63,120 nt of DNA from Bacteroidota bacterium (GTDB taxonomy: Bacteria > Bacteroidota > Bacteroidia > Chitinophagales > Chitinophagaceae). A program made the translations under genes and the position numbers. Where the stretch lies: positions 1-63,120 of the forward strand of contig BJGL01000003.1 of assembly GCA_014190475.1 (NCBI GenBank), read 5' to 3'. The notes beneath the pieces are model-generated. The model saw only the letters and a program-made list of their open reading frames with translations, was not told the origin of the DNA and made no database searches. Of the stretch, positions 33,638-49,666 are shown piece after piece. Within the stretch, counting starts at the first letter, position 1. Every line of letters starts with the position of its first letter.

Positions 33638-34849
33638 TTAAAAGAAACGAAGAATCCAGTAAATAAAAGCGGCCAGTAATGCGCTGACTGGGATAGTAAG
33701 TATCCAAGCCCAAATTAAATTAATGGTTACCCCCCAGCGAACGGCGGATAGACGTTTTGTGGCGCCCACTCCCATGATTGCTCCTGTAATAGTATGTGTG
33801 GTGCTAACTGGAATTTTTAATGCTTCTGTGAGAAAGAGGGTCAGGGCTCCAGCAGTTTCTGCCGCTACGCCTTCAAAGGGAGTTACTTTGGTGATACGCG
33901 TACCCATTGTTTTTACAATTTTCCAGCCACCACTCATGGTGCCTAATCCAATAGCAGCGTAGCAGGCAATAGGAACCCAGTTAGGCATTTCCTCAAAAGA
34001 ACCAATTTGCCCTCCAGCAATTAATGCTGCGGTGATAATACCCATTACTTTTTGTGCATCATTACCCCCATGTCCAATGCTAAAAGCTGCTGAAGAAACT
34101 AGCTGTAATTTTTTGAACCATAAATTGGAACGGTGTGCATTCAATTTATTTAGATACAAAGAAAAAATTGCCATAGTCAATAGGATGAAAGCCAAAAGGA
34201 TCCACTTGAAATTTTTAGAGTAGAAAATAACTTGCATCCAATAACTCTCATAATCTGTTTTCCCAGCAAGCTCAACTGGATCTGTGAGTAGGTTTGTTTG
34301 CAAAAAGTAAACTACGTATACTATTACCACCAATGAGATAATTCTGGATTTCCAACCTTTACCAAATGAGCTTAAAAACCAGAGAGACATGACAAATGCC
34401 ATCAGCATGCCAATTAAAGGTGCTAAAAATATAAAGCTGACAGTTTTGATAATAACAGCAGAATTGACTGCATCAAATCCCGCAGCTGCAATTCCTGCAC
34501 CGGCAAACCCGCCAATCAAGGTATGAGAGGAGGAGGAGGGAATTCCAAACCACCAAGTCAATAAATTCCACGCTATTGCTGCAATCAAGCCAGCAAAAAT
34601 CACGTTCATCATGCTCCCGCCATTCACGGCGTCCGCATTTACAGTTTTAGCAACAGTATTAGCAACTCCGTGGTCTTTGAAAATGAAAAAGGCTACGGAG
34701 TTAAATATAGCTGCCCAAAGTACCGCTTGAAAGGGGGTAAGCACTTTGGTAGATACTACAGTAGCAATAGAGTTAGCAGCATCATGAAAACCATTGATGT
34801 AGTCAAAAAGAAGAGCGAGAATTATGATTGAAATCAGAAAAGTAGTCAT
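33638..34849 (-). CDS. Inorganic phosphate transporter (Pit family)
   Basis: FDYINGFHDAANSIATVVSTKVLTP; GHGGNDAQKVMGIITAAL; PVSTTHTITGAIMGVGATKR. Confidence 0.95.
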   Translation of the reverse strand: MTTFLISIIILALLFDYINGFHDAANSIATVVSTKVLTPFQAVLWAAIFNSVAFFIFKDHGVANTVAKTVNADAVNGGSMMNVIFAGLIAAIAWNLLTWWFGIPSSSSHTLIGGFAGAGIAAAGFDAVNSAVIIKTVSFIFLAPLIGMLMAFVMSLWFLSSFGKGWKSRIISLVVIVYVVYFLQTNLLTDPVELAGKTDYESYWMQVIFYSKNFKWILLAFILLTMAIFSLYLNKLNAHRSNLWFKKLQLVSSAAFSIGHGGNDAQKVMGIITAALIAGGQIGSFEEMPNWVPIACYAAIGLGTMSGGWKIVKTMGTRITKVTPFEGVAAETAGALTLFLTEALKIPVSTTHTITGAIMGVGATKRLSAVRWGVTINLIWAWILTIPVSALLAAFIYWILRFF

Positions 34850-34856
34850 GAACTAA

Positions 34857-35531
34857 TTATGCATATTTGAGGATAATTGACTCGATTACGTTACTGGCAT
34901 CTTCGCACTTGTCAGTGGCCAGTTCCATAACTTGGTAAATTTCCCGAATCTTAATTACCTCTTTAGCGTCTGTTTCTAAGGCAAACAAACGCTCGATACT
35001 CATATCAAAAACATCGTCAGCCTGATTTTCAATGCTGTTAATCTTAATCATAGCCTCCGTGATAGCCTTGATATTTTTCATATCACGCAGCTGCGTAACT
35101 GCAATCTTTACCTGCTGGCATCCTTGCTCGATCAATTCAGCAAACTTTTGCATACCCGTATCGTTGGTATTGACCCGGTAGAAGTTCATTTTTTTTGCGG
35201 ATCCGAAAATATAGTCAGCAATATCATCCAGAGAGGTGGCTAGATAGTGAATATCTTCCCGATCAAAAGGGGTGATAAAATTTCGTCCCAACTCCAAAAA
35301 TAAACTGTGAGTCAAGTCATCATTTTGATGTTCCAAGTCCTCTATCACAGCAATTAACTTGGCTCTTTTGTCAAAATCAGGCTCAGCAACTACTGCCTTC
35401 AGTTGTGTGCCCATCACAGTCAAATTTTCTGCCACTTTTTCAAACAGTTCAAAAAACACCGCATTTTTAGGGATGAAAATTTTAAGAAAAGAATTTAATC
35501 CGGACATATATGATTTTTTAGCAAGGCGCAA
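34857..35531 (-). CDS. DUF47 family protein (phosphate transport accessory, PhoU-like)
   Basis: All-helical; EDIHYLATSLDDIADYIFGSAKKM; adjacent to Pit gene. Confidence 0.9.
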   Translation of the reverse strand: MRLAKKSYMSGLNSFLKIFIPKNAVFFELFEKVAENLTVMGTQLKAVVAEPDFDKRAKLIAVIEDLEHQNDDLTHSLFLELGRNFITPFDREDIHYLATSLDDIADYIFGSAKKMNFYRVNTNDTGMQKFAELIEQGCQQVKIAVTQLRDMKNIKAITEAMIKINSIENQADDVFDMSIERLFALETDAKEVIKIREIYQVMELATDKCEDASNVIESIILKYA

Positions 35532-35713
35532 TTAGTGCACAAGCGAAAATACCTTTGTATTTTCTCTTGAAGTATCTCTTATTAAGAATTAATGATTAGT
35601 TAATAAATCAAGATTAAATAATTCAATATCAGTGTATTATATACAATTTTAGCCTATTGATTTGCCCAGTTGGTGGCTTTTTTTAGCTGTGCTGCCAAGG
35701 GCTTGGTAATATT

Positions 35714-35765
35714 CTGTTAACATGGGGTTAACCATCTGTTAACAATGCCGTAAGGTTCGGATAAC
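35714..35765 (+). promoter_or_regulatory. Putative Pho-box-like array: five 8-mers phased at 11 bp
   Basis: CTGTTAAC-atg-GGGTTAAC-cat-CTGTTAAC-aat-GCCGTAAG-gtt-CGGATAAC, then 10 bp to -7-like CAGCTTTG (35776-35783). Confidence 0.7.
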
Positions 35766-35799: not shown

Positions 35800-38589
35800 A
35801 TGTTTTTACGGATAGCTCAAACTCTTGGTTTTCTCTTGTTGGTCGTTAGCTTTTCCGCCAACGCTCAGTCAATTAAGTTAACGGGAAAAATTACAAATAA
35901 TAAGAATGAAGCATTGTCAGGGGTTACCGTAAAAATACAGGGTACTAATGCAGGGGCCATGTCTGATGTAGAGGGTCGTTTCAATCTTGCTTTAGCACCT
36001 GGAAAAAAATATACAATTGATTTTTCTGCAATCGGGTATGAGCCAAAAACTATTACAGAGGTTGAGGTTAAAGAAGGTCAGGTAAATGAATTGGACATCA
36101 CTTTGGATATAAAATCGAAGACGCAGGAAAATGTTACTGTAACAGCACGTACTTCCACAGCCAGACGCGAGACAGTGAATTCTATGCTGTCTTTTCAACG
36201 TAATACAAACACGGTGGCTTCAGTGGTTGCTGCCGAAGCTATTCGTCGCTCTCCAGATCGTAACACGGGTGAGGTACTTAAAAGAACACCTGGAGCCAGT
36301 TTACAAGAAGGAAAGTTTATTGTAATTAGGGGTTTGGCCGACAGATATAATCAAGCCATGATCAATGGTATTTTGCTGACCAGCACTGAGCCTGATCGCA
36401 AAACATTTTCATTTGATTTGATTCCTTCCAATGTAATTGACAATCTTGTAATCAATAAAGCCTTTGTGCCGGAATATCCCGGTGAGTGGGCTGGAGGTCT
36501 TATCCAAGTGAACACAAAGGATATACCCTCCAAAGATTTTTTACAGATACAGGTAGGAACGGGGTTCAACTCACAAGCATTAGGCCGAGATTTTTTTAAG
36601 GATCACAGAAGTCCGACAGATTGGTTGGGTTTTGATAATGGCACTCGTGCAATGCCATCCTCGTACACACGGAAATCCGCTTTTGACACACTTTCACCTG
36701 CTGAAAAGACTGCAATCGGTAAGCAACTTAGAAATGCATGGGATCCTATTCTTTCTCAAATCCTGCCTAATCATTCCTTTCAGATTAACGGCGGTTTCAG
36801 TGGTAAATTTCTTGGAAAAACTGTCGGAGCTACTCTCGGAGTAACTTATAACAGAAACTATCGCGTGTTAGAGTTGATCAATCGCTCTAATTCCCTCACT
36901 GGGGGTGTTTTTAGCGTCAACTACGATTTTAATGACACACGTTATGTGCAAGATGTGAATGCGGGTGCTATTGGAAGTTTCTCTATCCAATTAAATTCTT
37001 TGAATAGGATTTCAATCAAGTCAATACTAAGTGTTAGTGCCCCTTCTTTTGTTACAAAGCGGGTTGGGTTGGACTATAACAGAGATGAGGATCTTACTGC
37101 TAGCGAGTTACAGTTTAAGCAAAATACATTCTTCACCTCCCAAATAAATGGAGATCATTCTTTGCATTCCTCGTTGAAGTTGAAGTGGTATGGTTCATTC
37201 AATATTTTGGACGGGTATATTCCTGATCAACGGCGAATTGCATACACCCGTACCACAGGCACACAGGATCCATATCGACTGTTAATCTCTAACACATTAT
37301 CACAACAGAGTGGAAGCCGTATTTACCAAACACTCAGTGATTACATCTATACGGCAGGTGGTGATTTAAATTATAGCTTCAATGCATTTAGTCAGAAACA
37401 ATCCCTAAAGGTTGGATACATGTTCCAGGTCAAAGACCGTTTATATGATGCCCAGCTTTTTGCAAATTACCTTCCCAAGGATAATCCTGCATTAAAAGTA
37501 TTACCTGCCGCTACCGTTTTTGCACCTGAAAATTTTGGTAATGGCACAGATACAAAATTTGGTTTTGATGCCATCAAAGGAAGAAATTTCCGATACATGG
37601 CTAACACTATTTTGAATGCAGGTTTTATTCAATTTGACAATCAGTTTAGCAACAATTTTAGAATTGTATGGGGTGTTCGAGCTGAGCATTTTGACCAATT
37701 AGTTGGTAGTGTGAAAGTATGGGACCCTCGGCACTCTTATTCAAAGGTGCTTGATTTCTTACCTGGAGTAAACGCTACCTTGAAATTAAATACAAAAACA
37801 AATCTCCGTCTGTCAGGTTCTCAGACTGTAATAAGACCCGAGTTGCGTGAATTATCCTTCCTTAATATCTACGACTTTGAACTGAACGCCTCTGTACAAG
37901 GAAATCCTTTACTGAAGCGTACTAAAATCACCAACCTTGATTTACGCTATGAAATTTACCCTAAGCCGGGAGAGGTATTTACTGCGGGAGTGTTTTACAA
38001 GTTCTTTGACAATCCTATCGAACAACTTTTCAATGAGGGAATTGGAGGTGCAAGTACTTTTAGCTACCAGAACCCTGATAAAGCAACTGCTTATGGATTG
38101 GAAGTGGAGTTGAGAAAGAAGCTGGATTTCACTAATGCGCTAAAGAATTTTACCTTCCAATTCAATGCCTCATACATTAAGAGTAATGTGAAAGACCAGG
38201 GCTTTCAGATTGACAGACCCTTGCAAGGCCAATCTCCTTATTTGTTGAATGTTGGCCTTTTATATGACTACGAAAAGGCAGGAATCAGCAGTACACTCCT
38301 TTTCAATCAAATTGGCGAGCGTATCTATTTAGTGGGTGATCTCACAGCAGGTGCGGGATCTCCAAATATTTGGGAAGCTCCCCGTCCTCTATTAGATTAT
38401 CAAATTGCCAAAAAATTGATGAAGAATAAGTCAGAACTGCGTTTAAACATTTCTGACATATTGAATGCTACGCAATATTTCTATCAAAATGCGGATGCTA
38501 AGAGTTCTTTTCAAAAGAACTTGGATGCTTACCGATTTACCCGACGCCAGGGAACCACATTTAGTCTTTCATTTCAAATCAACTTATAA
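35800..38589 (+). CDS. TonB-dependent outer-membrane receptor with carboxypeptidase-like regulatory domain
   Basis: Signal peptide; ITNNKNEALSGVTVKIQGTNAGAMSDVEGRFNL; plug GEVLKRTPGASLQEGKFIVIRGLADRYNQAMINGILL; C-terminal FSLSFQINL. Confidence 0.93.
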   Translation: MFLRIAQTLGFLLLVVSFSANAQSIKLTGKITNNKNEALSGVTVKIQGTNAGAMSDVEGRFNLALAPGKKYTIDFSAIGYEPKTITEVEVKEGQVNELDITLDIKSKTQENVTVTARTSTARRETVNSMLSFQRNTNTVASVVAAEAIRRSPDRNTGEVLKRTPGASLQEGKFIVIRGLADRYNQAMINGILLTSTEPDRKTFSFDLIPSNVIDNLVINKAFVPEYPGEWAGGLIQVNTKDIPSKDFLQIQVGTGFNSQALGRDFFKDHRSPTDWLGFDNGTRAMPSSYTRKSAFDTLSPAEKTAIGKQLRNAWDPILSQILPNHSFQINGGFSGKFLGKTVGATLGVTYNRNYRVLELINRSNSLTGGVFSVNYDFNDTRYVQDVNAGAIGSFSIQLNSLNRISIKSILSVSAPSFVTKRVGLDYNRDEDLTASELQFKQNTFFTSQINGDHSLHSSLKLKWYGSFNILDGYIPDQRRIAYTRTTGTQDPYRLLISNTLSQQSGSRIYQTLSDYIYTAGGDLNYSFNAFSQKQSLKVGYMFQVKDRLYDAQLFANYLPKDNPALKVLPAATVFAPENFGNGTDTKFGFDAIKGRNFRYMANTILNAGFIQFDNQFSNNFRIVWGVRAEHFDQLVGSVKVWDPRHSYSKVLDFLPGVNATLKLNTKTNLRLSGSQTVIRPELRELSFLNIYDFELNASVQGNPLLKRTKITNLDLRYEIYPKPGEVFTAGVFYKFFDNPIEQLFNEGIGGASTFSYQNPDKATAYGLEVELRKKLDFTNALKNFTFQFNASYIKSNVKDQGFQIDRPLQGQSPYLLNVGLLYDYEKAGISSTLLFNQIGERIYLVGDLTAGAGSPNIWEAPRPLLDYQIAKKLMKNKSELRLNISDILNATQYFYQNADAKSSFQKNLDAYRFTRRQGTTFSLSFQINL

Positions 38590-38609
38590 AATCAACTAAA
38601 GCAAATATC

Positions 38610-40067
38610 ATGAAGAACTCAATTCTTTTTCTAGCTGGTTTATTAGCCCTTGGCATTACTAGCTGCCGAAAAATCGAAAAAGATGGTGAAATCCAGGTTG
38701 TTGTTGTGAATGGTGGTGGCGGGTCTACCACCGGTCAGACAATTACCTTGCAAGGTCGTATCGCTGCTGATACAATTTTGCGTAAGCAAAACACCTACAT
38801 CCTGAAAGGTTTAGTGTACATGGTGAATAATAAAACCATGACCATCGAACCAGGTACTGTAATTAAAGGTTCATTCAGCGGATCTGATGTAGCTGCATTA
38901 ATCATTACACGTGGATCTAAACTTATTGCAGAGGGTTCTGCCACTGACCCAATTGTATTCACCTCTGCTTCGCCAAATCCTCAATCAGGGGACTGGGGTG
39001 GAATTGTGATTTGTGGTAGAGCTCCAATAAATACCAGCTTTAATGGAACTGCGGGGTTATTCCAAGTTGAAGGAGGAATTGATAACGCAAATGGGGATGG
39101 CCTTGCCGGCTCTGGTGATGCTGTAGCTCCGGCTGCAATTCCAACCGATAATTCAGGGTCTTTAAAATTTGTACGTATTGAATACGCTGGTTATGCTTTC
39201 CAGCCTGATAAGGAAATTAATAGTTTAACGATGGCTGCGGTTGGTAGTGGAACCACTATTGAGAATGTACAAATTACATATGCCAAGGACGATGCATTTG
39301 AGTGGTTTGGCGGAACGGTAAATTGTAAATATTTGATTGCCTATAAGACGCAGGATGATGATTTTGATACGGACAATGGGTATAGTGGCAAGGTCCAGTT
39401 TGGTATTGTTTTCAGGGATTCATTGATTGCAGATATTTCCAGATCTGAAGCTTTTGAAAGTGATAACAATGCTGCTGGAACCACCGCAACTCCCCAAACA
39501 AAAGCCATATTTAGTAATATCACAGCCATTGGTCCTCGTGCAACATTGAATAATATTGGTAATGCTTTATATCGTGGTGCAGCTCACATACGCCGCAACT
39601 CGGGCATATCAATTTTCAATTCAATAATACTTGGATGGCCTACAGGTATTGAAGTAGATGCTACTACTGGTCGCTCAACTATGCTTAATATCGAGGACAG
39701 TACCCTTCGTTTACGTAATATCACTTTGGCTGGTAATACAAATGCTACTGCATATCCTGGGGTTGCGGGTAACACAATCACTACTCCTGCATTATTTGCT
39801 TCTTGGTTTTCACAAGCATTTTATAACAATGACATTCTTGTAAATACTTCAGATGCGCGATTAATTCAACCTTTCAATTATAATGCATTTGATCCTACTC
39901 CTTTTGCTGGTTCAAACGGAAATCAGCGAATATTGACCGGAGGCGGTTTTATTGATGCCAAGTTCACAAACGATACTTTCTTTGATAAGACAATTACTTT
40001 CAGAGGTGGTGTAGCACCAGCGGGTGCCCTCTCTACTTGGTGGAAAGGCTGGACTGTATTTAAGTAA
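38610..40067 (+). CDS. Lipoprotein with right-handed beta-helix-like repeats, partner of TonB receptor
   Basis: Lipobox LGITSC; TIEPGTVIKG, GSKLIAEGSATDPIVFTSASPNPQSGDWGGIVICG; 20 nt downstream of the receptor. Confidence 0.75.
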   Translation: MKNSILFLAGLLALGITSCRKIEKDGEIQVVVVNGGGGSTTGQTITLQGRIAADTILRKQNTYILKGLVYMVNNKTMTIEPGTVIKGSFSGSDVAALIITRGSKLIAEGSATDPIVFTSASPNPQSGDWGGIVICGRAPINTSFNGTAGLFQVEGGIDNANGDGLAGSGDAVAPAAIPTDNSGSLKFVRIEYAGYAFQPDKEINSLTMAAVGSGTTIENVQITYAKDDAFEWFGGTVNCKYLIAYKTQDDDFDTDNGYSGKVQFGIVFRDSLIADISRSEAFESDNNAAGTTATPQTKAIFSNITAIGPRATLNNIGNALYRGAAHIRRNSGISIFNSIILGWPTGIEVDATTGRSTMLNIEDSTLRLRNITLAGNTNATAYPGVAGNTITTPALFASWFSQAFYNNDILVNTSDARLIQPFNYNAFDPTPFAGSNGNQRILTGGGFIDAKFTNDTFFDKTITFRGGVAPAGALSTWWKGWTVFK

Positions 40068-40230: not shown

Positions 40231-40482
40231 ATGAACAGAATTATCGAAGCAATTCGAAGGGCACCCTCTGTGAAAGATGTTTCAAGTTTATTGGATAGTC
40301 ATTGGAACGAAAAAAGAGAATCCGGGACTGAAGCAGGGATAATTTTTTTAATTGAATTAAGAGCTGCATTAAATCAAATTGACCCGATTGATGTGGGGGA
40401 GTCTGCCGAGTGGGCTAATATTCAGCATGCCAGAGTTTATCTCCACCGTATTACTGCAAAGCAATCTTCTCAGGCAAAATAA
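40231..40482 (+). CDS. Hypothetical small protein (83 aa)
   Basis: Isolated ORF with soluble coding-like composition; TATTTTTG (-7-like) at 40194-40201; overlaps the 3' end of a convergent gene. Confidence 0.5.
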   Translation: MNRIIEAIRRAPSVKDVSSLLDSHWNEKRESGTEAGIIFLIELRAALNQIDPIDVGESAEWANIQHARVYLHRITAKQSSQAK

Positions 40483-41485
40483 AATCTCTTTTGTTGGGGA
40501 CTGACCAAATCTCTTGTATATAGCCTAATGATTGATCTGTGGAGCGGCTATAATCCCGTTGAATCATATCCCCATGTGTCAACCAAGTCTCAATAGAACT
40601 CGCATCAAGTGCTTTGTAGGGGTCTAGTACAGTTACCCCCATATTTTTTAAAGCAATGGCATTACAGTATTGCTCGTATTGTCCCCAAATTGGCATTGCT
40701 AGGATTTTCTTTCCTAGTTGCATCGCCTCTGCTGGTGTTTCAAATCCTGCTCCACATATTATCCCGTCCGAATTAATTAAGCTTTTATTGAACGATTCTT
40801 GTTCGATAGGTTTGAAAAGTATATTTTTTTCCTGAGTAGCTGCTTTAACAGTTTTACTAAATACCTCAAAGCGCTGAAGAGGTATTTTTTTTAGAATTGA
40901 TTGTAAGAAACTGTCATGTAAAGCAGGAAGATAAACGGTGATATGTCCCTGATTAATTGGAGTTGCTTTTAGTATTTCCGGTTTTATAATAGCACCAAAT
41001 ATTGCTGGGTGGTACTTTTCGAAGTGTAATCCAATATGGTGGGAAGCCTGAACATATTTTTTCAAAAGCAATTCGCCATGCCAACTTTTAAAGGCAGGTC
41101 TGGGTACTTCTGCATATTGAAAACTGGCTTGATGTCCAAAATGTATTGAGTTGACCTTTTTCAAGCTACAAGCCATTGAGGTTAAGCAATCAAAGTCGTT
41201 CAACACCAAATCATATTTTTCAACAGGTAAGGATAATACTTCTTTGTAGATACCAATAGGATTTCGCTGAAAGGCAATCTTTGTATAATCCAGTCCTCCG
41301 GCATTATTGTAGTAGAGACTGATTCCTTTACTTCTGAATTTAATGGGTAAATTGGCTTGCAGGTGGCTATTATTTCCGCTCAAAAAGCAATCGACTTCAC
41401 CCCATTTTTGTAAGTGGGGTAGGAGCGTAATTGCCCTACTAATATGTCCATTACCGGTAGCTTGTACTGCGTAAAATATTTTCAT
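40451..41485 (-). CDS. Glycosyltransferase (GT28/MurG-like fold)
   Basis: N-terminal YAVQATGNGHISRAITLLPHL; C-terminal GIICGAGFETPAEAMQLGKKILAMPIWGQYEQYCNA. Confidence 0.85.
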   Translation of the reverse strand: MKIFYAVQATGNGHISRAITLLPHLQKWGEVDCFLSGNNSHLQANLPIKFRSKGISLYYNNAGGLDYTKIAFQRNPIGIYKEVLSLPVEKYDLVLNDFDCLTSMACSLKKVNSIHFGHQASFQYAEVPRPAFKSWHGELLLKKYVQASHHIGLHFEKYHPAIFGAIIKPEILKATPINQGHITVYLPALHDSFLQSILKKIPLQRFEVFSKTVKAATQEKNILFKPIEQESFNKSLINSDGIICGAGFETPAEAMQLGKKILAMPIWGQYEQYCNAIALKNMGVTVLDPYKALDASSIETWLTHGDMIQRDYSRSTDQSLGYIQEIWSVPNKRDFILPEKIALQ

Positions 41486-41500
41486 ATGTTGTAGACTAAA

Positions 41501-42352
41501 TTAAAATGGAAGCTGGTGTATGTGCAGCCCGATCTCATCTGTTTCTACATTTAACTCAGGTAATTGCTTTTGCATACTTACCACAGGTGCCAGTTGAAAA
41601 TCCTCTTCTTTATAATGATAGATCTCCCAGGTTTGATTGGAGTATTCAAGGGCGGTTAAATTTTCTATCCAATCACCACTATTTAAATAAGTAACCTGCC
41701 CCTCGACAGTCGTTACTACTCGTTGCTGGGGCTGGTGTATGTGCCCACAAATCACATAATCATATCCCTTATTGATGGCTAGCTCAGCTGCTGTTTGCTC
41801 AAAATCCGCGATCCAGCTTACGGCTTTCTTTACTCCATTTTTTACTTTCTTGCTCAAGCTCATTTTTGGCTGACCAAATTGAGTCAGTATCCAATTGATT
41901 AGCCGGTTTAGCAGAATAAGCCAGTCATATCCCCAGCCTCCCAATTTTGCAATAATTTTTGCACTTCCTTTTGTAGTTGCATCGAAAACATCACCATGAA
42001 AAATCCAGGTGCGTTTACCATTCATTTCTATAACCAACTTATCTGTCAATTGAAAGTTACCCAGGTGAAGTTCACTATAGCGGCGTAGCATTTCATCGTG
42101 ATTGCCGGTCACATACACAACTCGGGTTCCTTGGGCAAGCAAGTTTAGAATCTCCTTAATGACCTGCATATGGGCTGGAGGGAAGTAGCTTTTACTAAAT
42201 TGCCAGCCATCTATGATGTCCCCATTCAAAATCAGCAATTGAGGAGTAATGCTTTTAAGATAATGTACCAACTCCCTTGCATGACAACCATAGGTTCCCA
42301 AGTGAATGTCACTAAGTACCACTACGTCGGGACTCCTTTTTTGCATTATCAA
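41501..42352 (-). CDS. Calcineurin-like metallophosphoesterase (UDP-2,3-diacylglucosamine diphosphatase/PlcP-like)
   Basis: VVLSDIHLGTYG, LNGDIIDGW, VTGNHDE, IFHGDVFD, VICGHIHQPQ. Confidence 0.88.
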   Translation of the reverse strand: MIMQKRSPDVVVLSDIHLGTYGCHARELVHYLKSITPQLLILNGDIIDGWQFSKSYFPPAHMQVIKEILNLLAQGTRVVYVTGNHDEMLRRYSELHLGNFQLTDKLVIEMNGKRTWIFHGDVFDATTKGSAKIIAKLGGWGYDWLILLNRLINWILTQFGQPKMSLSKKVKNGVKKAVSWIADFEQTAAELAINKGYDYVICGHIHQPQQRVVTTVEGQVTYLNSGDWIENLTALEYSNQTWEIYHYKEEDFQLAPVVSMQKQLPELNVETDEIGLHIHQLPF

Positions 42353-42376: not shown

Positions 42377-42419
42377 ACGTTAACTGGGTATTAAGCAGAT
42401 GTTATGAAACCGTGAATCA
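42377..42419 (-). promoter_or_regulatory. Putative Pho-box-like array between divergent metallophosphoesterase and ppx genes
   Basis: Minus strand: TGATTCAC-ggt-TTCATAAC-atc-TGCTTAAT-acc-CAGTTAAC (11-bp phased), 10 bp, then TTACTTCG (42368-42361). Confidence 0.5.
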
Positions 42420-42464: not shown

Positions 42465-43364
42465 GTGAAACTGGCAGCAATAGACATAGGTAGTAATGCT
42501 GTTCGACTCTTGATTTCTGAAGTAGTTGAGCATGCCGAGCAAAATCCTGATTTTATAAAAACAGTATTAGTCCGTGTTCCTTTACGCTTGGGTTTTGATG
42601 TATTTGAAAGGGGCTCCATATCAGGAAACAAGACAGAGCAGTTAGTAAAGACCATGCAAGCATATAAGTTGCTTTTGGATGTATATGGGGTGCGAAATTT
42701 GAAAGCTTGTGCTACATCCGCCATGCGTGATGCAGCCAATACAACTGAAGTTTTGCAACGAATTAAAGCGGAGGCAGGTATTGCGGTACGGGTAATCAGT
42801 GGTGAAGAGGAAGCAACATTAATTTATGAAAATCATATTGCTGATTATTTGGACGCTGCCGAGTCTTATTTATATATTGATGTAGGTGGGGGTAGCACCG
42901 AGCTTACTTTTTTTAGTGATGGGAAACTGGTATTTAAAAAGTCTTTCAATATTGGAACTATACGATTGCTAAAGGAGCAGGTTTCTTCGGAAAACTGGGA
43001 GGATATGAAAACGTATATCCGTCAGAAAATTAAAGGACATCACCACGTTACGGCTATTGGCTCCGGTGGTAATATCAATAAAATATTTAATCTTTCTAAA
43101 AGAAAAGAGGGGAAGCCCATCGATTTGGAGCTGTTGAAGCAATATCATAAGGAATTGAATGAGCTAAGTATTCCTGAGCGTATGCAGCAGTTTCGCATGC
43201 GTGAGGATCGGGCGGATGTTATTGTGCCGGCGCTTCAAATCTATATAAACGTTATGCGTTGGGCTGACGCCGAAAGCATGTTTGTACCAAAGATTGGGCT
43301 TGCTGATGGCCTGATCCATACTCTCTACGAGGAGGTGGTATCCAGAAAGGCAGTAGCTAAATGA
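42465..43364 (+). CDS. ppx: Ppx/GppA family exopolyphosphatase (GTG start)
   Basis: KLAAIDIGSNAVRLLI; LYIDVGGGSTELTFFSDG; TAIGSGGNINKI. Confidence 0.93.
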   Translation: MKLAAIDIGSNAVRLLISEVVEHAEQNPDFIKTVLVRVPLRLGFDVFERGSISGNKTEQLVKTMQAYKLLLDVYGVRNLKACATSAMRDAANTTEVLQRIKAEAGIAVRVISGEEEATLIYENHIADYLDAAESYLYIDVGGGSTELTFFSDGKLVFKKSFNIGTIRLLKEQVSSENWEDMKTYIRQKIKGHHHVTAIGSGGNINKIFNLSKRKEGKPIDLELLKQYHKELNELSIPERMQQFRMREDRADVIVPALQIYINVMRWADAESMFVPKIGLADGLIHTLYEEVVSRKAVAK

Positions 43365-43463: not shown

Positions 43464-45557
43464 ATGCTAATTCCACGTGACATCAGCTGGCTGTCATTTA
43501 ATGGCCGCGTCTTACAAGAAGCGAATGACCCTACCGTACCGCTTCAACAACGTATTCGATTTTTGGGCATATTTTCTAACAACCTGGATGAGTTTTTTAG
43601 GGTTCGTGTGGCTACTCTTAAAAGGATGTCCGATTTAAGAGCCAAGCGAAAGAAGCTCAACATTGATATTGACGTCAATGCGCAAGAAATTTTGGACGAG
43701 ATACAAATGATTGTCTTGCGCCAGCAAAATGAGTTTGAGCGTATTTGGAAAAATATCATACAAGAACTCAAACAGCATAAGGTTTATATTAAAAATGAAA
43801 AGCAGCTAACCAAGCCACAACAGCAATTTGTTCGTGAATTTTTTGAGTCACAGGTTCGTAATTACGTTATTCCCCTCATGATTGAGACTCTACCATCCTT
43901 GCCTTACATTCGAGATAAAAGCATTTACTTGGGTGTGGTCATGCGAAAGAAGAGCACGGCCTACCAAGATCAGTATGCATTGATTGAAGTACCTGTAAAA
44001 TCCATTGGTCGATTTGTTCAGCTACCTTCATCCGGGGATGAAAAAAATATTATTCTGTTGGAAGACATTATTCGATTTAACTTACCTAGGATCTTTCCCT
44101 ATTTCGATTTTGAACTTTTTGAAGCTTGGTTATTTAAGGTTACCAAAGATGCCGAGTTAGAAATTGACCACGACTTGTCTACCAGCTTTGTCGAGAAAAT
44201 GGCCAAGGGTATTAAGAACAGAAGAAAAGGGAAGCCGGTGCGATTTGTCTATGATAAGGAGATGGATAATGGGCTACTACAGTACCTGATTGGTCGGTTG
44301 GGCCTCACTAAAAAAAGTGCAATTATACCAGGTGGTCGTATCCATAACTTTCGACATTTTATGGATTTTCCGAACGTGCTACCCGCAACCCAAGCCCGAA
44401 AGCCCGCTTTTACCCATCCATTGTTAAAGGATACTCTTCGTGTTACAGATGTGATATTACAGCGTGATGTGATGCTGCATTTTCCTTACCATTCTTTTGA
44501 CTCGTTAATTGATTTATTGCGCGAAGCTGCTATGGATGCTGCAGTCGAACGTATACAAATCACTGCCTATCGGTTGGCCTCCTCTTCGCGTGTTATTCAC
44601 GCTTTGATAAATGCAGCAAGGAATGGGAAATCGGTGGAAGTTATGCTCGAATTAAAAGCAAGATTTGATGAGGAAGCAAATTTGGAATGGAAATCTGTTT
44701 TGGAAGAAGAGGGTATTCGAGTATTGTTAGGGGTGCCAAATATGAAAGTGCATGCTAAGCTTTGTGTTATTACACGTAGGGAAAATAAAAAGAGACAGCT
44801 TTACGGATTTGTTAGCACGGGTAATTTGAATGAATCCTCTGCCCGCGTTTATGCTGATCATTGTCTATTGACGTCTTCCCCAGTTATCATGCGGGATGCT
44901 TTACATCTATTTGAATATCTGGAAAAATGGCAGCGTGGTATGATGCCACTTCGGAGATGTAAAACCTTGTTAGTTTCACCAGTATCCATGCGTACTGATA
45001 TAGCCCGGATGATTGAGCAAGAAATAAAGACTGCTCGATCTGGGAAGAAAGCAAAAATTATTATAAAGCTTAATTCACTTAGCGACCCCTCATTGATTAA
45101 ACTGTTGAACAAAGCTGCTTCAAATGGAGTAGAGCTTCATTTAATTATCAGAGGGATTTATTGTGCTCGATTTCCGATCTCCAAAAAGGCGCTTCCCCCT
45201 CATGCCATCAGCATCGTTGACGAGTATTTGGAGCATGCTCGTGTGTTAGTCTTTTACAATAAAGGAAAGGAGCGCGTGTTTATTTCATCTGCCGATTGGA
45301 TGGTACGAAATCTCGACTATCGGATTGAGGCTGCCGTTGAGATTTTTGATCCAACTATTCGTAAAGAAATGCTTAGCATGCTGGACATTCAGCTTGCAGA
45401 TAATGTTAAAGCAAGACTGTTGAATGATCGGTTAGATAATCAGTATGCCAAAAATGATTCCAAGCATTCGATCCGCTCACAGGTATTGATTGCGGACTTT
45501 CTTCAACGGGTCTCGTTGAGAACTCGCAAAAAGCTGACTAGGAAATCGGTAGTGTAA
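43464..45557 (+). CDS. ppk1: Polyphosphate kinase 1
   Basis: FLGIFSNNLDEFFRVRVATLKR; LHFPYHSFDSLIDLLREAAMD; MKVHAKLCVITRR; TGNLNESSARVYAD. Confidence 0.96.
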   Translation: MLIPRDISWLSFNGRVLQEANDPTVPLQQRIRFLGIFSNNLDEFFRVRVATLKRMSDLRAKRKKLNIDIDVNAQEILDEIQMIVLRQQNEFERIWKNIIQELKQHKVYIKNEKQLTKPQQQFVREFFESQVRNYVIPLMIETLPSLPYIRDKSIYLGVVMRKKSTAYQDQYALIEVPVKSIGRFVQLPSSGDEKNIILLEDIIRFNLPRIFPYFDFELFEAWLFKVTKDAELEIDHDLSTSFVEKMAKGIKNRRKGKPVRFVYDKEMDNGLLQYLIGRLGLTKKSAIIPGGRIHNFRHFMDFPNVLPATQARKPAFTHPLLKDTLRVTDVILQRDVMLHFPYHSFDSLIDLLREAAMDAAVERIQITAYRLASSSRVIHALINAARNGKSVEVMLELKARFDEEANLEWKSVLEEEGIRVLLGVPNMKVHAKLCVITRRENKKRQLYGFVSTGNLNESSARVYADHCLLTSSPVIMRDALHLFEYLEKWQRGMMPLRRCKTLLVSPVSMRTDIARMIEQEIKTARSGKKAKIIIKLNSLSDPSLIKLLNKAASNGVELHLIIRGIYCARFPISKKALPPHAISIVDEYLEHARVLVFYNKGKERVFISSADWMVRNLDYRIEAAVEIFDPTIRKEMLSMLDIQLADNVKARLLNDRLDNQYAKNDSKHSIRSQVLIADFLQRVSLRTRKKLTRKSVV

Positions 45558-46584
45558 AGCCAATTGTAGTTCCAACTTGCTCTGTGCTTCTGGCATGAAT
45601 AGTTTCTCCATGCGCTTCAATGATATGTTTACAAATGGCCAGCCCCAGGCCACTTCCTGTAATATCTCGTGATCTACCGGTTTCAGTGCGATAAAATCGT
45701 TCAAATATTCTAGAGATATCTTTTTCGGCAATCCCAATCCCATCATCGGTTATTTCAATCAAAATATGCTTGCCATCAGTTTTGTACATCGATGCTGTGA
45801 TGCTACCATTTTGTTTGCCGTATTTGCGTGCGTTTTCAATCAGGTTGCTTAGTACCTGTCTGATTTTTTCTTTATCTGCGTATACGGATAAAGGGTTTTC
45901 GCATTCCTTTTTTATACTGCAATGAATGGTATTATTCTCTGCAGCTGATTCAGTCATTTCAAAAACTTCTTTCACTAAGTCTTGAATTATAAAGGATTGT
46001 TTGATCAAGGGCAATTCACCTCTTTCTAACTTAGCGATCTGCTCAAGATCGGAGAGTAGATTGGAAAGCCTTTCTATATTACGTCTGGCATTTTCCAAGT
46101 ACTTCTTATTTACTTTAGGATCATCCAGCGCGCCATCTAATAGTGTTTCTATATATCCTTGAATGGAGAAAATAGGTGTTTTGAATTCATGGGATAGGTT
46201 TTGAAGAAATTCTTTTCTAAATTGTTCATTCTGGCGAAGCAATTCCATCTCTTTTTCGTTCTCGATGGCCCAGTCCTCTACATCTTTACTGACCTCCTCT
46301 AGCGTTTTCGGAGGGAGAATATACTTGTAGTAGTTCTCCTCCCTTTTGGTGGTTTTAGTCTTATGAATGAATTTGTAGATCAGTTTTATTTTTCGGTTGA
46401 TAAATTGTTCCAGCAATGCATTGATTACAAAATAGCTGATAGTAAAAATTGCTGTAAAAGAAAGTAAACCCAATGCCCATTTTCCGGAGGCCCATATAAC
46501 AAGTAAACTTTCTGGAAAAGATAGTATCAGGGCTGCAGTCAACGCAATTTGCCTGGGTGTAATATTGCTTTCTTGATTCAGCAT
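45538..46584 (-). CDS. Sensor histidine kinase (PhoR-like)
   Basis: NLSHEFKTPIFSIQGYIETLL; SNLIENARKYG; GSGLGLAICKHIIEAHGETI; two TMs. Confidence 0.92.
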   Translation of the reverse strand: MLNQESNITPRQIALTAALILSFPESLLVIWASGKWALGLLSFTAIFTISYFVINALLEQFINRKIKLIYKFIHKTKTTKREENYYKYILPPKTLEEVSKDVEDWAIENEKEMELLRQNEQFRKEFLQNLSHEFKTPIFSIQGYIETLLDGALDDPKVNKKYLENARRNIERLSNLLSDLEQIAKLERGELPLIKQSFIIQDLVKEVFEMTESAAENNTIHCSIKKECENPLSVYADKEKIRQVLSNLIENARKYGKQNGSITASMYKTDGKHILIEITDDGIGIAEKDISRIFERFYRTETGRSRDITGSGLGLAICKHIIEAHGETIHARSTEQVGTTIGFTLPIS

Positions 46585-46619: not shown

Positions 46620-47297
46620 TTACAGGACAAATTTATAGCCTACTCCCTTTACAGTTTTTATACAGTCAATACCGAGTTTTTGTCTGATTTTTCGGATGTG
46701 AACATCAATGGTGCGATCACCCACAATTACTTCATTGCCCCAAACCTGGGTTAAAATTTCATTTCTTAGGAATACGCGTCCGGGTTTATTGGCGAGTAAG
46801 TAAAGGAGCTCGAATTCTTTCTTGGCTAAGGAAATGGATTTTCCCTCTACAGTAACTAAAAATTGCTCGGCGTTTATAGCTATGGGCCCGGCAACTAAAC
46901 TATTGCTTTCGGATTTACTCTGTCTTCTAAATAAAGCTTGTAAACGACTCACCAGCACTTTGGGGCTAACAGGTTTTCCAATATAATCATCAGCTCCTGT
47001 TTCCAAGCCTTTCACGACGGAACCGTCGTCACTGAGTGCGGTTAACATAACAATGAGCGTTTCACTGAACTGGGTCTGCGAACGTAATATTTTGCAGACT
47101 TCCACACCCGATTTTTTAGGCATCATTACATCCAAGAGAATAAGATCTGGTTTATTTTTTTTGGCTTTATCCAACGCATCGTCTCCATCCTGCGCCAAAA
47201 TCACTTCATAACCCGCTGCACTGAGATTGTATTGCAACAACTCCCGAATATCCGGTTCGTCATCTGCAACCAATACTTTACGGATCTTACTTTCCAT
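46620..47297 (-). CDS. OmpR/PhoB-family response regulator
   Basis: VADDEPDIRELLQYNLSAAGYEV; LDVMMPKKSGVEVC; winged-helix C-terminus IDVHIRKIRQKLGIDCIKTVKGVGYKFVL. Confidence 0.94.
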   Translation of the reverse strand: MESKIRKVLVADDEPDIRELLQYNLSAAGYEVILAQDGDDALDKAKKNKPDLILLDVMMPKKSGVEVCKILRSQTQFSETLIVMLTALSDDGSVVKGLETGADDYIGKPVSPKVLVSRLQALFRRQSKSESNSLVAGPIAINAEQFLVTVEGKSISLAKKEFELLYLLANKPGRVFLRNEILTQVWGNEVIVGDRTIDVHIRKIRQKLGIDCIKTVKGVGYKFVL

Positions 47298-47416: not shown

Positions 47417-49666
47417 ATGCAGTCCTTATTCAAAAAACCCATTCTCTCTCTTTTCTTAGTGCTGGGCATGGCGGGTGCTGCTGCCCAACCGGGTGATACC
47501 TATTTTCGTCCGCCGGACGGTTATAAACCTGAGTTTCGAAGAGAGCGTAATCATGAGCTAGTACAGCAGGAGCAGCGGTTGATTATGGAAAGTGATGGGG
47601 TCAAGGATAATCGATTTGCCCCTGGTGAAATAGAGCCGCTTAATAAAGCGCTCACGTACGCACTTTTACATGAGGTTAATCGAATTGCTTACCAGATTGA
47701 AACTGACCCTGTCTTTGATCATCGTCTCAAGGTCAATTATCTTTTTGGATTAGAGAATTTGCTAAAGTTTTTTAGGGAGCACTGGAAACGTACAGGTATA
47801 GAGGGGGTTAATCCTCAGTATCTCTCTATGCTTATTGCAACGTACGAAGCCTGTGTTTCCAGTGATAAAAAAGGGAGCAGTATCGCTGATCTGGTGGTAA
47901 GCCTTCCCTATGATGCCGGTACTACTATAATGGCGGCCGGTATTTTTGAGAAAAACCCGGGTTACCAAATCTGTAGAGAAAATCTACTTCTCAAATATTG
48001 TACACTACTGCCAGAAAAAACATTCCCGGTTTTACAGAAAAATCCTGATGTGCTAATTGCAGACAGCTTAATTAAGGTTGTAGCTCGAAAATTTCCACGA
48101 CAATTGTATGATTATGCTGCTGCCGGTGATCGATTAGGGCAACGGATCCGTGCTATTCAGGATGATGCATTTGTAGCCTTGGTGGCACGTATGGCACTCA
48201 GCAAAAGTGGACAACAGTATTTTCCCTTTGTTGATAATATTCTGCAAGGCCGAACTTCTTTGGAGCAAATTGATGCGGTCAAGGAAGATACGCTGGGATA
48301 TTATCGGTTGTTAGTTGCCACGCAACGGGATTATGTCAAGCGGGCCCTACAAGGGGATACTGCTATGGAATCAAAAGCCCTGGGTCGTCGTTTAGAAGAC
48401 AAGGCTCGTTCTCATTTTGTAACAGTTATTAATGCATTACATAATGAGAAAGACTTACAAGTTCGTTTTAAAATATTACAGCCGTTGAGTGCTGCAGAAC
48501 TTTACTACTTGGCGGTTTCTTCCGATGGAACTATTTATACGTCTAGCTTTGTCCGTGGTGTGTATCCATTGATGATGTCTCGTATTGGTAATCGGGGCGA
48601 TTCCTTGCTCAAAGAAATTCGGTTTGATCGGTATAGGAAGTTCATCAAAATGGCAGCGGCTTTCAATACCCTCGATGAATTTTTAGCTTCTTTTCCAACT
48701 GCTACCCGTGCCGGGGTAGAGGATCCTGCTAATACGCTCATGCGTGCTTTTGTAAAAAATTTAGATAAAACAGATGGGTTGGAAGACGGCGCTGATGTAG
48801 CCGATTCTTATGCCAGTATTGCTGAAAATTTACAACCTGTTGCTAAGCGCATGCTCGAAAACATTCGTGAGAATCAACAGGAGGCGGTACAACAGGGTAG
48901 CCGAAAAGGCATGATCATTTACTCCATCCTTGAAAAACTGTTTCTGTCTGCGGACAGTACTCGAAAAATTGATCTCACAAAAGAGTTAGGGATACCTCCC
49001 GTTTATCAGGTTCCATTTAAAGATTTAGCGGATGATAGTGGACGTGTCCATGTACAATTGTTTATCTATGGCGATAAAGATGGCATTGGGGTGTTTCCAG
49101 GGCTGGTGAACATGTTTAACAATAGTAATTGGAAAATCGATCCTTCCAGCAAGTATTGGATTCGGGTAACGGCAGCCAAAGGGAAGCCTGTTACCTTGTA
49201 TATGAATCGTCCGTTGCCGGAGGAGCAAAATGAAGATGCAAAGGCGCAGGAGGAATTGAACAATTTTCTACAACAACAAGGGATTACCCCTCGAATTACT
49301 ATTAACAGAGGGCATAGCTATAACGCTCCCTATACAATTGCCCAAATGTCCCCTGCCTCTAAAATTGTTTTTATGGGTTCTTGCGGGGGCTATAATATGA
49401 TTCACGATATTTTACAAAAAGCACCTGATGCACATATCATCGGGACTAAACAAATAGCCGATGCGCCCGTAAATAATCCATTCCTTCGTTTATTGATGGA
49501 AAAACTACGCACTGGAAATGATATTGAATGGATTGGTTTTTGGAATGAGCTAGATAAAATTGTAACTGATAAGATCTTTGAGGATTATGTTCCTCCGCAT
49601 AAAAACCTTGGGGCATTATTTATCAAGGCGTATACCAAAGCCATGACTTCCTCTTCAACTCTTTGA
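47417..49666 (+). CDS. Uncharacterised secreted 749-aa protein with caspase-like (clan CD) His/Cys signature near the C-terminus
   Basis: Signal peptide; ITPRITINRGHSYN...SKIVFMGSCGGYN (H633, C656). Confidence 0.7.
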   Translation: MQSLFKKPILSLFLVLGMAGAAAQPGDTYFRPPDGYKPEFRRERNHELVQQEQRLIMESDGVKDNRFAPGEIEPLNKALTYALLHEVNRIAYQIETDPVFDHRLKVNYLFGLENLLKFFREHWKRTGIEGVNPQYLSMLIATYEACVSSDKKGSSIADLVVSLPYDAGTTIMAAGIFEKNPGYQICRENLLLKYCTLLPEKTFPVLQKNPDVLIADSLIKVVARKFPRQLYDYAAAGDRLGQRIRAIQDDAFVALVARMALSKSGQQYFPFVDNILQGRTSLEQIDAVKEDTLGYYRLLVATQRDYVKRALQGDTAMESKALGRRLEDKARSHFVTVINALHNEKDLQVRFKILQPLSAAELYYLAVSSDGTIYTSSFVRGVYPLMMSRIGNRGDSLLKEIRFDRYRKFIKMAAAFNTLDEFLASFPTATRAGVEDPANTLMRAFVKNLDKTDGLEDGADVADSYASIAENLQPVAKRMLENIRENQQEAVQQGSRKGMIIYSILEKLFLSADSTRKIDLTKELGIPPVYQVPFKDLADDSGRVHVQLFIYGDKDGIGVFPGLVNMFNNSNWKIDPSSKYWIRVTAAKGKPVTLYMNRPLPEEQNEDAKAQEELNNFLQQQGITPRITINRGHSYNAPYTIAQMSPASKIVFMGSCGGYNMIHDILQKAPDAHIIGTKQIADAPVNNPFLRLLMEKLRTGNDIEWIGFWNELDKIVTDKIFEDYVPPHKNLGALFIKAYTKAMTSSSTL

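Follow-up and report, generated by a model that had tools for sequence, protein, structure and literature searches.

Two adjacent genes in a 63,120-nucleotide contig of a Chitinophagaceae bacterium (the window) probably form a Pho-controlled unit for membrane-lipid remodelling under phosphate starvation, in which a PlcP-type phosphoesterase would convert phospholipids to diacylglycerol and a glycosyltransferase (GT) that is not an Agt would convert the latter to glycolipids. We give this reading, drawn from sequence and structure comparisons, a probability of about 0.7. The phosphoesterase half is a known enzyme type, and the GT half belongs to a family that would be new to such a role; we regard the unit as a variation on PlcP-type lipid remodelling and not as a system of a new kind. 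The source genome, of which the window is contig C3, amounts to 1.9 Mb in 122 contigs and is 98.7% complete.

Identity of the phosphoesterase

Both genes lie on the minus strand and are separated by 15 nt, as a sequence-only reading of this DNA had described: the phosphoesterase gene (41501–42346) has its stop at 41501, and the GT gene starts at 41485. The 281-residue phosphoesterase probably starts at the ATG at 42346 and not at the listed TTG at 42352, 6 bases further out, since its homologues begin there. It matches PF00149 (E = 2.4e-15) and PF12850, in agreement with its description as a calcineurin-like phosphoesterase, and its metal-ligand set is intact and invariant (D13, H15, D43, N82, H117, H202 and H204).

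The sequence-only reading had preferred a PlcP-type enzyme to LpxH, and phylogeny bears this out. In a maximum-likelihood tree of 63 proteins, one branch with 100/100 support separates 40 PlcP-like sequences, including that of the window, from 23 LpxH-like sequences, and the split is present in 100% of the bootstrap trees, in an analysis with flagged long branches and a bootstrap that had not fully converged. The PlcP side includes the product of an S. meliloti gene whose neighbours are those of an acyl-homoserine-lactone synthase and of a LuxR protein, at the sinI-sinR position that we take to be that of SMc00171, as well as that of a P. aeruginosa plasmid gene adjoining a GT gene, an arrangement matching PA3219-PA3218. 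On the LpxH side are E. coli LpxH and the source genome's own LpxH candidate, encoded on contig C36 (9757–10467). The latter scores 92 bits with the LpxH model TIGR01854, about twice the score of the window protein (about 46.5–46.8 bits, far under the cut-off of 190), although its score is also under that cut-off, which only one genome of the control set reached. Because C36 carries this separate and better LpxH, the window gene is not the genome's only LpxH candidate; LpxB and LpxK are present as well. The C36 gene (L010, 9010–10467) runs into a masked N stretch after about 237 aa.

Comparison of 100 same-family genomes revealed two clear classes, PlcP-like matches of ~40–78% identity (most of them >50%) and LpxH-like matches near 24–33%. 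The PlcP-like class is absent from about 19 of these genomes by hand count, and nearly all of those 19 keep the LpxH-like class.

That the phosphoesterase is instead LpxH, the UDP-2,3-diacylglucosamine diphosphatase of lipid A synthesis, is very improbable. Automatic annotation does label such proteins LpxH, as in the plasmid matches, the window protein has weak matches to LpxH models, and its predicted fold (a moderate model, pLDDT 80.6) is closest to LpxH structures, as expected of related enzymes. Fold and metal-ligand residues are common to both. However, the two fall in separate clades, the genome has its own, higher-scoring LpxH elsewhere, about a fifth of the relatives do without the gene, and residues D122, C200, I203 and E234 are kept in the PlcP-like sequences and differ in the LpxH sequences, that of E. 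coli included. We reject an LpxH identity on the strength of the tree split and the second LpxH, and at the level of sequence comparison the PlcP identity is well supported.

The glycosyltransferase and its pairing with PlcP

The second gene (40451–41485, minus strand) codes for a 344-residue protein that Pfam and NCBIfam profiles and an AlphaFold model point to as a GT-B glycosyltransferase of family PF13528, probably of the MJ1255-VC2487 family; its adjacency to PlcP bears on its predicted role. It matches PF13528 with an E value of 5.7e-27 (95.2 bits for a cut-off of 25), and TIGR00661, the model of the MJ1255/VC2487 family, with 128.9 bits, under its cut-off of 195.9. The GNGH motif noticed earlier is real, since the protein begins MKIFYAVQATGNGHISRA. 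The AlphaFold model (pLDDT 91.6) has a GT-B fold close to those of UDP-sugar glycosyltransferases and MurG in the PDB, and it also resembles sterol and small-molecule UDP-glycosyltransferases. The sequence alone had no match among PDB sequences, and a profile search yielded weak GT1-type matches.

The enzyme had been called GT28-like, which holds for its GT-B fold but not for its family, as PF04101 (GT28) has no match in it at E 0.001; it shares that fold with the GT28 glycolipid synthases (MgdA/UgtP-like) and by the same result is not a member of them. The likeness to Agt did not survive comparison. P. aeruginosa Agt1 is of the GT4 type (PF13439/PF13692), whereas the window protein matches PF13528 only, and BLASTP against Agt1 gave an E value of 0.76. 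We know of no tested function for the PF13528 family, and our search of the mostly open-access literature found no tested PF13528 lipid glycosyltransferase.

Close relatives of this GT occur in 51 genomes of the phylum, 49 of which also have PlcP, and the two genes are adjacent in 47 of these 49 (hand count). The co-occurrence gives a Fisher p of 8e-34 with shared ancestry ignored, and in the two-gene units the ORFs overlap or nearly touch. Among 80 named loci, the GT adjoins PlcP in 45. At these loci, the gene immediately beside plcP in Flavobacteriaceae is in most cases aroC (chorismate synthase, identified by eye) and not a Pho gene, and many members of this family have plcP beside aroC, away from Pho genes, without the GT. 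The plcP-GT pair itself is found away from Pho genes in many relatives. In F. plurextorum and its relatives, a PF04101 GT is encoded beside a phosphate-selective porin, as reported for Fjoh_0541-Fjoh_0542 (PMC8115612). In F. psychrophilum, the GT directly behind plcP shares 64% identity with the GT beside the F. plurextorum porin; because plcP is followed there by a relative of that PF04101 enzyme, the second enzyme has been exchanged within the phylum.

About 55 genomes of family f16 in the phylum have a GT relative of 30–35% identity and no PlcP-like gene, and hence this branch of the GT presumably has another role.

Phosphate genes and candidate Pho boxes

The sequence-only reading had set the pair between a TonB receptor and Pit on one side and ppx, ppk1 and PhoRB-like genes on the other, and all of these neighbours, with PhoU_div in addition, were identified by profile. 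The first group comprises, on the minus strand, the genes for Pit, a PHO4-family phosphate transporter (33638–34849; PF01384, E = 4.8e-94), and for its accessory protein PhoU_div (DUF47; 34857–35531; PF01865), and, on the plus strand, those for a TonB-dependent receptor (35800–38589; PF00593/PF07715), with synteny in the same-genus genome G210, and for its partner lipoprotein (38610–40067), which is devoid of Pfam matches. The second group begins with ppx, divergent from plcP (exopolyphosphatase; 42465–43364, plus strand; PF02541; TIGR03706, 221.6 bits), and ppk1 (polyphosphate kinase; 43464–45557, plus strand; TIGR03705 above cut-off). They are followed on the minus strand by genes for a PhoR-like sensor kinase (45538–46584; NCBIfam PnpS/PhoR models) and a PhoB-like response regulator (46620–47297), whose best match is TIGR02154 PhoB with 231 bits for a cut-off of 296; both assignments are under equivalog cut-offs, which is a caution on Pho control. 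PstC was not found in the source genome, while all 14 control genomes gave a match, and Pi uptake may depend on Pit alone.

The association recurs elsewhere. A same-genus relative has plcP-GT directly downstream of phoBR, in the order phoB-phoR-plcP-GT, then ppx-ppk, lipoprotein, TonB receptor, PhoU_div and Pit. In separate lineages, the Pho neighbours of the pair are phoBR (G210, G035, L199 and L225), ppx/ppk (L030, L108, L162, L169 and Mitsuaria) or Pit/PhoU (L219).

Other genes of the region have counterparts elsewhere too. The TonB receptor and lipoprotein pair (35800–40067) lies near plcP in the distant lineages L136, L139, L141 and L225 as well, and it resembles the Pi-induced TBDT/FI-FII lipoprotein pairs of F. 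johnsoniae. Divergent from phoB and beside an ABC exporter, a 749-aa protein without Pfam match is encoded at 47417–49666, in an arrangement that is retained in G210, G035, L199 and L225. An 83-aa ORF without Pfam match (40231–40482) is convergent with the GT gene and shares 32 nt with its end; it may be spurious.

The phased array that had been noticed upstream is real: TTAAC repeats spaced by 11 bp occupy positions 35694–35765, flanked by two divergent gene pairs, PhoU_div/Pit and TonB receptor/lipoprotein. A further array, unmentioned earlier, stands directly before plcP (42379–42416, minus strand), 33–70 nt upstream of its ATG. This candidate Pho box consists of four TTAAC-like units at 11-bp spacing with 17/20 matches, a score reached in none of 500 shuffles; the array at the TonB-receptor promoter scores 18, which is not an independent test because the unit was derived from it; independence does hold for the plcP site and for the named relatives. 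Allowing ≤3 mismatches, the pattern occurs at only these two places in the 1.9-Mb genome, for 2 matches of a backward control pattern. Upstream of 78 named plcP genes, 45% of the regions score ≥14/20 at period 11, compared with 1–9% at periods 8–10 and 12–14, and with 5% of the regions before LpxH genes. A genome-wide search of 20 relatives at ≤3 mismatches returned no array at plcP; several of the arrays found are next to TonB-receptor or PhoU_div/Pit homologues, in several other genera, and others next to unrelated genes. Since known Pho boxes have an 11-bp period, PhoB presumably binds the TTAAC arrays. We found no described Bacteroidetes Pho box in a search of mostly open-access literature. 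Together, the Pho genes around the pair in the window and in relatives and the 11-bp arrays uphold the proposed link to phosphate, and at the level of sequence a Pho-controlled role of the plcP-GT unit is well supported.

In the same-genus relative, the stretches G210:C1 312437–340454 and C8 16036–44613 contain several 11-bp tandem repeats of the type TTGAACNNTGG, which have no relation to the Pho arrays.

Proposed mechanism, alternatives and known systems

In the proposed mechanism, Pi shortage would lead to PhoB-type activation through the 11-bp TTAAC array, which would switch on plcP and the GT gene behind it. PlcP would remove the phospho-headgroup of membrane phospholipids, mostly phosphatidylethanolamine in Bacteroidota, on the cytoplasmic side of the inner membrane, releasing phosphate and diacylglycerol. 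On the likeliest reading of its function, the PF13528 enzyme is predicted to add the sugar of a nucleotide-sugar donor to the diacylglycerol left by PlcP, which would yield a phosphorus-free glycolipid. We infer the phospholipase C activity, the Pi induction, the sugar donor and the diacylglycerol acceptor.

PlcP-Agt systems are found in Sinorhizobium (SMc00171), P. aeruginosa (PA3219-PA3218), SAR11 and Methylosinus. The window has in common with them a PlcP-type phosphoesterase gene followed by a GT gene, a location in or near Pho genes and Pho-box-like repeats in front. It differs in its GT, which is of the PF13528/MJ1255 type and not a GT4 Agt, and in its candidate Pho box, TTAAC-N6 with a period of 11 rather than the CTGTCAT type. 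Closer to hand is the Pho regulon of F. johnsoniae, a member of the same phylum, with Fjoh_4577 as plcP and Fjoh_0541 as a GT in the phoBR operon (PMC8115612). Both share plcP, a GT, phoBR, a TonB transporter and a lipoprotein, and in F. johnsoniae there is a response to Pi: its depletion induces Fjoh_4577 (log2FC 8.59) and Fjoh_0541 (log2FC 5.42) (PMC8115612). In that species, however, plcP is an orphan and the GT is annotated as PF04101, whereas in the window plcP adjoins a PF13528 GT.

The acceptor of the sugar is where the main doubt lies, as the GT is outside the experimentally tested Agt (GT4) type. PlcP might act in Pi starvation while the GT glycosylates ceramide, polyprenyl phosphate or a cell-wall precursor, in which case the product would not be a glycerol-based glycolipid. 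The lack of a known tested function in the family, the fold resemblance to sterol and small-molecule UDP-glycosyltransferases and the f16 genomes with a GT relative and no PlcP are all compatible with this possibility. So is the phosphorus-starved flavobacterium Dokdonia sp. MED134, which contains mainly aminolipids and not glycolipids (PMC4796936), a caution for the glycolipid reading. That the GT is so closely paired with PlcP, in two-gene units, argues against another acceptor, as does the F. psychrophilum GT, related to the porin-adjacent enzymes in the Fjoh_0541 arrangement, which takes the same place behind plcP; we regard this alternative as unlikely. That the two genes are ordinary envelope-housekeeping genes whose position among phosphate genes is coincidental seems far less probable still. 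The many relatives in which the pair is away from Pho genes speak for it, but coincidence hardly accounts for phoBR, ppx/ppk or Pit/PhoU neighbours in separate lineages, nor for an array at only two genomic places.

Diacylglycerol glycosylation thus being our preferred reading, a broader proposal can be made tentatively, at slightly less than even odds. The PF13528 GT might be a third kind of Pi-stress glycolipid synthase that replaces Agt across much of Bacteroidota and stands with plcP under an 11-bp TTAAC Pho box specific to the phylum. This streamlined genome, in which PstC was not found, would then reserve its strong Pho boxes for two promoters alone, those of Pit/TonB uptake and of lipid remodelling. 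Work on PlcP-Agt has centred on Proteobacteria, and soil and fresh water are rich in Bacteroidota. Should the replacement lipid be the product of the PF13528 GT, the second enzyme of Bacteroidota would be a different one, and a search with Agt would not find it. Lipid remodelling is likely undercounted because such phosphoesterase genes are routinely annotated as LpxH.

The labels of some database records among the compared loci (L165, L072 and L078) look wrong. A MAG contig filed under 'Klebsiella pneumoniae' carries a PlcP-GT pair of Bacteroidota. Records of chromosome size are filed as plasmids (S. meliloti 'pSymB', 3.7 Mb, and Aeromonas, 4.9 Mb).
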